Assembly: GCF_017813335.1 (NCBI RefSeq)
Contig: NZ_JAGIYY010000001.1
Span: 186,001-250,000, forward strand
Direction: 5' to 3'
Origin: Tianweitania sediminis
GTDB taxonomy: Bacteria; Pseudomonadota; Alphaproteobacteria; Rhizobiales; Rhizobiaceae
Length of the DNA stretch: 64,000 nt
Below are positions 50,499 to 53,294 of the stretch, in pieces. Position 1 is the stretch's first letter, and every line of letters begins with the position of its first letter. Made by a program: the position numbers and the translations under genes. The notes beneath the pieces were generated by a model, which worked only from the letters and a program-made list of their open reading frames with translations, was not told the DNA's origin and searched no databases.

Positions 50499-51077
50499 AT
50501 GACAAACACACCTCAAGCTGCAGGCTCCACGCCAGCGTGGGCCAACTCCGTTCTTCAGTTCTGGTTCGATGAACTCACCAGGGAAGACTGGTTTTCCGGC
50601 GATGCCGGCGTTGATGCCCGGATCAACGAGCGCTTCGCAGAACTTTACGCGGAGAAATGCGCCAGCATTCCGGAGGGAGCGCTTCAGGACCCTCGTACGG
50701 CGCTCGCCGCGATTCTCCTGTTCGACCAGATCCCGCGCAACCTTTTTCGCGGTTCAGCCAAGGCGTTTGCAACCGACGAGATGGCGCTGACGATTGCCCG
50801 CACCGCAGTCGACAAAGGCTTCGATTCTCAACTCGGCAAAGAGGAACAGGCGTTTTTCTACATGCCCTTCGAGCATTCGGAGACTCTGGCGGACGGGGAG
50901 CGCTGTGTTTCCTTGTTCAAGAGCCTCGGTGACGAAGAAATGATCCGCTTTGCTGTGGAACATCGCGACATTCTCGCGCGCTTCGGCCGATATCCCCACC
51001 GCAATCGGGCCTTGAACCGGGAAAGCACGGCGGCTGAAGAAGCCTTTCTTGCGGAACACAAAGGCTTTGGGCAGTAG
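50499..51077 (+). CDS. DUF924 family protein
   Basis: A 192-residue all-helical protein of the DUF924 family: VLQFWFDELTREDWFSGD at the N-terminus and ALAAILLFDQIPRNLFRG in the middle, then YMPFEHSETLADGE. The family resembles TPR-like folds and its function is unknown. The ATG at 50499 gives the standard start; the frame is open further upstream. Divergent from the TetR gene. Confidence 0.9.
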   Translation: MTNTPQAAGSTPAWANSVLQFWFDELTREDWFSGDAGVDARINERFAELYAEKCASIPEGALQDPRTALAAILLFDQIPRNLFRGSAKAFATDEMALTIARTAVDKGFDSQLGKEEQAFFYMPFEHSETLADGERCVSLFKSLGDEEMIRFAVEHRDILARFGRYPHRNRALNRESTAAEEAFLAEHKGFGQ

Positions 51078-51149
51078 CCGGGTGCGCTTGCAACCAAAGG
51101 CGCCCTGCCAGTATCGTGACGCGGAAGAAAAGACTTGAGGGAGCGAAGC

Positions 51150-53294
51150 GTGGCCAAGGAAGTGGGTTCAAAAAGCGAACAGTCGCAATCGGCGGAAACA
51201 GACAAGCCCAAACGCAGCCGCAAGACGCAAACCGCCGAAGCAGCGAGCGCAACTTCCAAGCCCGCCGCCGCGCCGCGGACCCGCAAGCCGAAAGGTGCCA
51301 CAGCCGAACCACAGCCATCGGCAGCTGAGCCGGCGCCCAAGGCACCCGCTCGCAAGGCGTCCAGCCGATCCAGCAAGGCGCCGGCCGGGGAGGCGAATAT
51401 GCCTGCTTTTGAGAACACAGCGCCTGCCGCCGACAAAGCCGCAACTGCTGAAAAGGCGCCGGCCAAACCGCGCACCCGCAGCGCTAAGGCAAGTGCGAGC
51501 GCCACAGAAACCGCTACCAACAGCAAAACCGCTGAAACCATCCCTGCTGTCGAGAAGCCCGAGGCGGCTCCCGATGCTATCGACGCGAATGCTGCTGCGC
51601 CCACGGCCTCGGCCAAGCCGCCGGCTTCAACGCCGAAGCCGTGGCTTGCGAGCTATCCGCCTAATGTTCCCGCCGACATTGTCGGTTTGCCGGCCGACTC
51701 GCTCGGCGCCATGATCGTGGCGGGCTGCAAGACACATGGCGCGAAGCCTGCCTTCACCTCGATGGGCAAGTCGCTGAGCTTCACCGACTTCGCTGCGGAG
51801 TCGGAAGCCATGGCGGCCTACTTTCAGTCGCTCGGACTGAAGAAGGGTGCGCGCATCGCGCTGATGATGCCCAACATCCTGCAATATCCGATCGCGCTCG
51901 CGGGCGCGCTGCGGGCCGGATATGTGGTCGTCAACGTCAACCCGTTGTACACGGCCCGAGAGCTCGAGCATCAGCTGAACGACTCCGGCGCAGAAGCCAT
52001 CGTCATCCTCGAGAATTTCGCCAACGTCCTGCAGCGTGTCGTGAACAACACTGCCGTCCGGCATGTGATTGTGGCCGCCATGGGCGATCTGCTCGGGCTC
52101 AAGGGGTTTGCCGTCAACCTCGTGGTGCGGCGCGTCAAGAAGATGGTTCCCGCCTGGCAGCTGAAGAACCACGTGCGCTTCAACGCCGCCTTGAAGGCTG
52201 GCCGCGGCATGACCTTCAAGCCTGTCACGGTGACGGCGGACGACCTGGCCTTTCTGCAATATACCGGCGGGACCACCGGCGTTGCCAAGGGCGCCATGCT
52301 CACGCACGGAAACGTGCTGGCCAATGTCGCCCAGAACGCGGCCTGGCTGGAAAGTGCGTTCGTGAAGCACAAGAGGCCCGAACAAGCGGTTTATCTCTGC
52401 GCCTTGCCGCTTTACCACATCTACGCCCTGACGGTGAACGCCCTGACCGGCATTCATCTCGGGTCGCAGAATGTGCTTGTCGCCAACCCGCGCGACATTC
52501 CGGCCCTGGTGAAGGACTTCAAGCAGCACAAGGTCAACTTCTTCCCGGGCCTCAACACGCTGTTCAACGCGCTCCTCAACAACGAGGACTTCAAGAAGCT
52601 GGATTTTAGCGCGCTGGTGCTGACCTTTGGCGGCGGCATGGCCGTGCAGCAGGCTGTTGCTGATCGTTGGCAAAAGCTGACGGGCGGCGTCATCTCGGAA
52701 GGCTATGGTCTTTCCGAAACGTCGCCGGTGGCCACGGCCAACCCCTTCGACGCCGAAAAGTTTTCCGGTACGATCGGCTTGCCGTTGCCGTCTACGGAAA
52801 TCTCGATCCGCAACGACAACAATGAAGAAGTGGCAACGGGCGAAGCCGGCGAAATCTGCATTCGCGGGCCTCAAGTCATGAAGGGCTACTGGAACAGGCC
52901 TGACGAGACCGCCAAGGTCATGACGGCGGACGGTTTTCTGAAGTCCGGTGACATCGGCTTCATGGACGAGAAGGGTTACACCAAGATCGTCGACCGGAAG
53001 AAAGACATGATCCTGGTTTCGGGCTTCAACGTTTATCCAAACGAAATCGAGGACGTGGTGGCGCGCCACCCGAAGGTTCTCGAAGTGGCGGCAGTCGGCG
53101 TCCCGGATGAAAAGTCCGGCGAGGTCCCCAAACTTTTCGTGGTCAAGAAGGATGCTTCTCTTACCGAAGATGAAGTTCGCTCGTTCTGCCGCGAGAATCT
53201 CACCGGCTACAAGCGGCCTCGTTTGATCGAGTTCCGCGATGAGCTGCCGAAAACCAATGTGGGCAAGATCCTGCGACGAGAGTTGCGCGGCTAG
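51150..53294 (+). CDS. fadD: Long-chain acyl-CoA synthetase with a disordered N-terminal extension
   Basis: A 714-residue AMP-forming fatty-acid CoA ligase. The enzyme proper starts near residue 165 (PWLASYPPNVPADI) and shows the P-loop YTGGTTGVAKGAMLTH, the YGLSE adenylation motif, and the C-terminal GDIGFMDEKGYTKIVDRKKD and KTNVGKILRREL motifs. It activates fatty acids for beta-oxidation or lipid synthesis. The first ~164 residues are low-complexity (Ala, Lys, Pro, Ser, Thr, Glu), resembling histone H1-like tails, and are absent from typical FadD proteins. The GTG at 51150 with a GGAG site sets the start. It shares its final bases with DUF4174. Confidence 0.93.
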   Translation: MAKEVGSKSEQSQSAETDKPKRSRKTQTAEAASATSKPAAAPRTRKPKGATAEPQPSAAEPAPKAPARKASSRSSKAPAGEANMPAFENTAPAADKAATAEKAPAKPRTRSAKASASATETATNSKTAETIPAVEKPEAAPDAIDANAAAPTASAKPPASTPKPWLASYPPNVPADIVGLPADSLGAMIVAGCKTHGAKPAFTSMGKSLSFTDFAAESEAMAAYFQSLGLKKGARIALMMPNILQYPIALAGALRAGYVVVNVNPLYTARELEHQLNDSGAEAIVILENFANVLQRVVNNTAVRHVIVAAMGDLLGLKGFAVNLVVRRVKKMVPAWQLKNHVRFNAALKAGRGMTFKPVTVTADDLAFLQYTGGTTGVAKGAMLTHGNVLANVAQNAAWLESAFVKHKRPEQAVYLCALPLYHIYALTVNALTGIHLGSQNVLVANPRDIPALVKDFKQHKVNFFPGLNTLFNALLNNEDFKKLDFSALVLTFGGGMAVQQAVADRWQKLTGGVISEGYGLSETSPVATANPFDAEKFSGTIGLPLPSTEISIRNDNNEEVATGEAGEICIRGPQVMKGYWNRPDETAKVMTADGFLKSGDIGFMDEKGYTKIVDRKKDMILVSGFNVYPNEIEDVVARHPKVLEVAAVGVPDEKSGEVPKLFVVKKDASLTEDEVRSFCRENLTGYKRPRLIEFRDELPKTNVGKILRRELRG

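Follow-up and report, generated by a model that had tools for sequence, protein, structure and literature searches.

We find that a fadD-type gene of Tianweitania sediminis (Rhizobiaceae) encodes what is predicted, from its sequence, to be an ordinary cytoplasmic long-chain acyl-CoA ligase (FadD) carrying a disordered N-terminal tail, and that similar Ala/Lys-rich tails precede the ligase in 27 of 93 orthologous genes of the family.

The ligase and its N-terminal extension

The gene lies on the forward strand at 51150-53294 of the 64,000-nucleotide stretch of DNA that we analyzed (the window) and encodes a protein of 714 residues, with its stop codon at 53292-53294 (Table 1). Residues 163-714 match NF005463 (PRK07059, long-chain-fatty-acid--CoA ligase) with 964 bits against a cut-off of 869 and span model positions 3-554 of 557, which places the protein in this family, and the AMP-binding domain (PF00501, residues 193-581) is followed by AMP-binding_C (PF13193, 632-706) in the expected order. 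The nearest solved structures by sequence (E<=1e-60) are adenylate-forming enzymes, for example 4-coumarate-CoA ligase and a FadD-1, with alignments that cover roughly the last 355-365 residues. An E. coli record is 57.5% identical to the window protein across residues 165-713; the difference from standard FadD lies ahead of the ligase, since residue 163 is where the NCBIfam models (557 and 561 positions) begin. A ligase sequence search gave 29 matches that all begin at 165, which is no proof that the matched proteins are without a tail because the search masks low complexity.

Table 1. Features of the fadD-type gene, in window coordinates.
Feature	Position	Strand	Basis
Shine-Dalgarno-like stretch GAGGGAG upstream of GTG	51137..51143	+	sequence and start list
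GTG start of the full-length protein (714 aa)	51150..51152	+	Ala-Lys at residues 2-3 in 24/27 tailed genes (directly after the start); DKPKR(S/V)RKT downstream in genus members
Basic tail half, residues 1-83, net +9, with DKPKRSRKT and PRTRKP patches	51150..51398	+	segment charge, motifs, genus alignment
Possible internal ATG start, with GGGGAGG at 51387-51393; would give a 631-aa short form	51399..51401	+	candidate, sequence only
Near-neutral tail half, residues 84-160, net 0, contains KPRTRS	51399..51629	+	segment charge, motif, pLDDT <50
FadD-type long-chain acyl-CoA ligase and stop	51630..53294	+	NF005463, PF00501, PF13193, mostly high-confidence predicted fold

The preliminary description of this DNA had reported an N-terminal extension on FadD that lacks a predicted fold and is missing from standard FadD proteins, and our results bear this out. 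Residues 1-164 have no Pfam or NCBIfam match at E<=1, and Rhizobium-type genes mostly have 11-12 residues in the same place. In the AlphaFold model pLDDT is below 50 over residues 1-160 (24-37 in ten-residue blocks), with no helix or other secondary structure predicted there, compared to mostly 85-98 in the ligase (low spots at 374-378, 619-628, and 702-714). Given that only 3 of the 42 rows in the input alignment carry a tail, the low tail pLDDT is partly an effect of a thin alignment. Based on the model, the tail of about 160 residues is predicted to be disordered.

By composition the window tail (160 residues) is 29% Ala, 21% Ser and Thr, 12% Pro, 11% Lys, 11% Asp and Glu, and 5% Arg. It shares with AlgP/PhaF-type tails a disordered segment dominated by Ala, Lys, and Pro. 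Their strong positive charge is absent: the window tail is a weak polyampholyte whose net charge, +5.6 per 100 residues, comes entirely from the first half. We looked for a DNA tandem repeat in the window tail and found none. The reading frame is already open upstream of 51150 and runs unbroken to the stop, in agreement with the preliminary description. The consistent GC bias that was also claimed is not seen, as GC3 is 65% in the tail compared to 80% in the ligase. AT skew reaches +0.64 over the tail-coding stretch (window 51025-51774), because Lys, Ala, and Thr, among others, are encoded by A-rich, T-poor codons. Opposite the tail there is also an antisense open frame of 252 aa (50858-51616, - strand), which is probably a by-product of the codon make-up of the tail.

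Such segments are rare in this genome. A strict composition filter passed the window tail alone among 971 ORFs (1.2 Mb), and a relaxed ranking of 2196 ORFs (2.4 Mb) placed it second, behind a linker in a LysM/M23 protein, which has a much lower positive charge (net +3 versus +12 per 60 residues for the window tail); the ORFs are mechanical calls and the scan covered about half of the genome. The LysM/M23 protein with its A/P/K-rich linker is encoded at G000:C17:263671-264879 (L308); a C-terminal segment rich in A, P, and K is also present in an SspB-domain protein, encoded at G000:C16:77168-77758 (L312). An origin of the tail by borrowing from another gene was rejected, as a search of the genome with the tail returned the tail itself and one poor match (five stops, E 0.019).

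Where translation begins

A start at GTG 51150, where the preliminary description had placed the ribosome site, is supported by comparison with orthologs. The same-genus orthologs G001 and G002 begin MAKAVKAAQAE..., giving a common start pattern [M/V]AK, and both carry DKPKRVRKT where the window has DKPKRSRKT. We take the KPKRVRK-type patch to be reminiscent of a eukaryotic nuclear import signal, a reading that we set aside. Over codons 1-52, differences between G001 and G002 fall at codon positions 1/2/3 as 9/7/20 (20/36 at the third position, p=0.005); this excess from the first residue on is, as far as codons tell, the pattern of translated DNA. A purine-rich, Shine-Dalgarno-like stretch is found by eye upstream of the start in all 27 tailed genes. 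In-frame ATG, GTG, or TTG codons of the window gene are at 51135, 51150, 51162, and 51399, followed by a TTG at 51687 inside the ligase. A start directly before the ligase (near residue 160), which the preliminary description had named as the case that would overturn it, is excluded with these codons because none is in frame between 51399 and 51687.

It is therefore very improbable that the tail is an annotation artefact of a protein whose translation begins close to or at the ligase, or from ATG 51399 alone. By a simple score the Shine-Dalgarno-like match of ATG 51399 is better than that of GTG 51150 (5 versus 4), and 12 of the 27 tails have a start-like codon within their last 30 codons. However, the other 15 have none, the tail of ortholog L091 has no ATG except its start, and the spacing of start codons in the window, the N-terminal motif common to genus members, and the coding-like variation of codons 1-52 all argue against an artefact. 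If the internal ATG were used in addition, the short form could keep only the neutral half of the tail. Starts at GTG or TTG are found in 21/27 tailed genes versus 6/51 short-headed ones (Fisher p 8e-9). When genes are paired on the tree, the difference is not significant (2-3 pairs in agreement, 0-1 in disagreement, and 5-6 without a difference), and we claim no link between non-ATG starts and tails.

Tails across the family

To place the window gene we used a sample of 101 genomes, nearly one per genus of the family, of which 90 have an NF005463-type gene at E<=1e-150. Ligase proteins of some family genomes are identical to those of named records (for example G003 to a 'Rhizobiaceae bacterium' and G212 to Pseudohoeflea), which suggests that the family is Rhizobiaceae in a broad sense. 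With the gene of G002 added, the set counted 94 genes, from which we removed that of G254 (<50% identity); the resulting set holds 93 orthologous genes from 90 genomes, and the starts of L089, L143, L170, L171, L175, and L186 were re-set by hand before counting. The number of residues ahead of the ligase is 0-14 in 51 genes, 15-49 in 15, and 57-312 in 27. Across the homologs with heads of 6 to 312 residues, the ligases are about 63-76% identical to the window ligase.

In a rapidly built tree of the ligase region (116 rows, including the doubtful row L084), long tails are found mainly in one clade with the window and Chelativorans (SH-aLRT 93, where the tool sets its star at 95). This clade has 37 rows, 36 family genes and Chelativorans L009; heads range from 6 to 312 residues, with at least 50 in 25/37 rows and fewer than 50 in 12/37. 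Outside the clade, a tail of at least 50 residues is found in 3/57 family genes (L146, L164, and L131) and in the named Phyllobacterium trifolii locus L010. The Rhizobium-type clade (27 rows) has heads of 11-33 residues, mostly 12. Among the best 80 named loci, only the Chelativorans locus L009 and the Phyllobacterium locus L010 have an A/K-rich head of at least 50 residues; L084 and L063 also have long heads, but the part inspected is not A/K-rich, and we take their starts to be mis-set. A class-wide sample added little, with 2/190 genomes above the cut-off, one of which is the window's own. In related genera, whose orthologs the preliminary description had proposed as a check, similar tails thus recur; this spread rejects a recent addition private to this genome and does not support its suggestion of a recent lineage-specific addition.

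The presence of a tail is clustered on the tree. With the state defined as a tail of at least 50 residues or not, a second tree, from which L099 and L202 were left out for their long branches, has at least 13 changes, compared to 16-29 in 200 label shuffles. The first tree has at least 14 changes at a cut of 30 residues, a count that includes the doubtful L084.

The 27 tails have much in common. Their mean composition is 32% Ala, 18% Lys, 10% Thr, 10% Pro, and 9% Ser, and hydrophobic residues are rare (Val 3.5%, Leu 1.2%; Ile, Leu, Met, and Tyr about 2% in total; Phe, Trp, Cys, and His 0.0%). In all 27, the tail exceeds its own ligase core in K/(K+R) (median 0.84 versus 0.59); Arg codons are better suited than Lys codons to GC-rich genomes. 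KPA occurs 98 times compared to 24.1 +/- 4.7 in within-tail shuffles (0/500 shuffles reach 98) and is present in 23/27 tails, an enrichment that belongs to the set, as the window tail has one KPA in its best 60-residue segment. Basic residues are more evenly spaced than in 200/200 shuffles. Every tail is net positive. The three from the window's genus are the least basic, with 5.6, 2.0, and 1.3 net charges per 100 residues versus 12.0-25.7 in the other 24. The term histone-tail-like, used in the preliminary description, suits the group (A 32, K 18, P 10, S+T 20%), but it fits the weak polyampholyte of the window less well. Two motifs associated elsewhere with DNA-binding proteins show no enrichment in the 27 tails: SPKK-type motifs occur once versus 3.4 expected and RGR once versus 0.3 expected, a count that 118/500 shuffles reach.

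Values of dN/dS are higher in the tails than in their cores. For G001 and G002, dN/dS is 0.25 over aligned tail codons versus 0.12 in the core, and the 4 of 6 pairs with usable dS give 0.25, 0.26, 0.40, and 0.38 for tails and 0.12, 0.16, 0.15, and 0.23 for cores; these figures, from low-complexity sequence aligned with protein guidance, lean low. Among genus members the second half of the tail diverges fast.

Possible roles of the tail

By analogy with the C-terminal tail of histone H1 and with the KPAA tails found in AlgP and PhaF, we propose that the tail is a disordered electrostatic tether, a proposal to which we give a little less than an even chance. Through many weak contacts, its lysines would keep FadD attached to a polyanionic surface and leave the ligase unhindered. 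As such a surface we favor the nucleoid or polyphosphate, and after these the anionic inner membrane; in the window's genus the basic stretch (residues 1-83 here) would bind and the neutral stretch would be a spacer. In favor of the tether we count the recurrence of the tails (27/93 genes; 25/37 clade rows), the Lys bias, KPA enrichment, even basic spacing, like beginnings, tail dN/dS, third-position excess, AlphaFold disorder, and the AlgP and PhaF precedents. Counted against it are the near-neutral genus tails, the single KPA in the best window segment, the lack of SPKK and RGR enrichment, and the clade rows with tails below 50 residues; these last also indicate that the enzyme can do without the tail. 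The analysis shows that the tail is there, where it probably starts, that it is predicted to be disordered, and how such tails are composed, distributed, and patterned in repeats; that they bind, to which ligand, and with what effect, if any, on fatty-acid use is inferred. In S. meliloti, FadD matters for stationary-phase survival (PMC7232532), and we infer that this role may be linked to granules or the nucleoid.

The precedents resemble the window protein in part. The KPAA domain of Pseudomonas aeruginosa AlgP binds DNA, is needed for the spacing of polyphosphate granules, and resembles histone H1, as described in PMC9239181. Both proteins have a disordered, low-complexity tail rich in Lys, Ala, and Pro, a likeness of composition as published (PMC9239181). 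The AlgP tail, which according to the same source is C-terminal, has 25 perfect KPAA repeats, and is attached to a helical domain of unknown function, is far more regular than the window tail, which has few KPA and many Glu or Asp. Because the strong-charge feature fails, we do not claim that the window tail is AlgP-type, but it may work like one. The AAKP repeats of PhaF bind DNA non-specifically according to PMC5658603 (see also PMC3574117). This phasin is a protein of carbon storage with a positively charged AAKP tail (compared by published composition; PMC5658603), but it consists of a phasin N-domain and a C-terminal tail, and the window protein of an adenylate-forming enzyme and an N-terminal tail. 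In a third example, ACS1 of Pseudomonas putida GPo1 is an acyl-CoA synthetase sited on PHA storage granules (Ruth 2008, as cited in PMC5658603), which we compare by description alone.

A TIGR01838 PHA synthase match is found in 25/26 tail-bearing genomes, the exception being G294 with a 134-residue tail; in this respect the tailed enzymes differ from ACS1. The match does not discriminate, since 5/63 FadD-bearing genomes that have no such tail lack it as well. These counts, which concern the TIGR01838 class only, weaken the idea that docking on PHA granules is the only role of the tail. Polyphosphate kinase, present in 98/101 genomes, does not discriminate tailed genomes either. Separately, in four genomes a PHA-synthase-like gene that is below the TIGR01838 cut-off has, at a distance of no more than about 0.8 kb, a tail-less, divergent relative of this FadD as its neighbor (G260:C34:447274-448941, G262:C1:4560085-4561752, G264:C115:32944-34611, and G280:C46:28025-29692), which suggests a FadD paralog tied to polyester storage in G260, G262, G264, and G280.

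A broader form of the tether proposal, which we consider unlikely, is that a Rhizobiaceae clade has made its FadD, with which fatty-acid degradation begins, nucleoid- or polyphosphate-tethered by an H1-like N-terminal tail, with acyl-CoA made beside chromatin or granules and with tail length and charge tuned in each genus.

It is also conceivable, if rather doubtful, that the tail is an electrostatic aid which keeps FadD close to the inner leaflet of the inner membrane, an anionic surface and the site of fatty-acid extraction and activation. According to PMC9329746, the binding of FadD to the inner membrane is transient, and fatty acids recruit the enzyme there; since it meets its substrate at this membrane (PMC9329746), an anionic membrane is a reasonable rival ligand, and the positive charge of all 27 tails would suit it. 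However, neither an amphipathic helix nor a hydrophobic anchor is apparent in the mean tail composition or in the prediction for residues 1-160, and Rhizobium-type enzymes mostly have about 12 residues there.

Of similarly low probability, in our judgment, is that the tail has no specific ligand and serves as a spacer for solubility or against crowding, or is a low-complexity appendage that drifts because constraint on it is weak. The range of head lengths in one clade, which also suits relaxed constraint, the repeated changes of state on both trees, and the almost neutral genus tails with their fast-diverging second half all speak for this. Yet the preference for Lys over Arg is found in 27/27 tails, KPA enrichment and even basic spacing exceed all shuffles, and the tail state is more clustered on the tree than in any label shuffle. 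Part of the KPA signal could come from repeat expansion by itself, but no DNA tandem repeat was found in the window tail.

In the published examples, H1-like KPAA tails sit on nucleoid/polyphosphate and phasin proteins (PMC9239181, PMC5658603). A narrow search of the open-access literature returned no report of a FadD with such an extension, and a broader search on AlgP, PhaF, H1, and FadD returned no such fusion in titles or abstract openings. FadD and the H1-like tail are each of a known kind; their combination and its clade-wide spread appear undescribed. If the tail is a neutral appendage, this would be a clean case of tails coming and going on an enzyme without loss of function. In either case, the homologs form a natural series, with heads of 6 to 312 residues, for probing the roles of lysine-rich disordered tails. 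If the tether proposal is true, lipid breakdown would be linked to the organization of the nucleoid or granules through a core metabolic enzyme that bears such tails across a whole clade.
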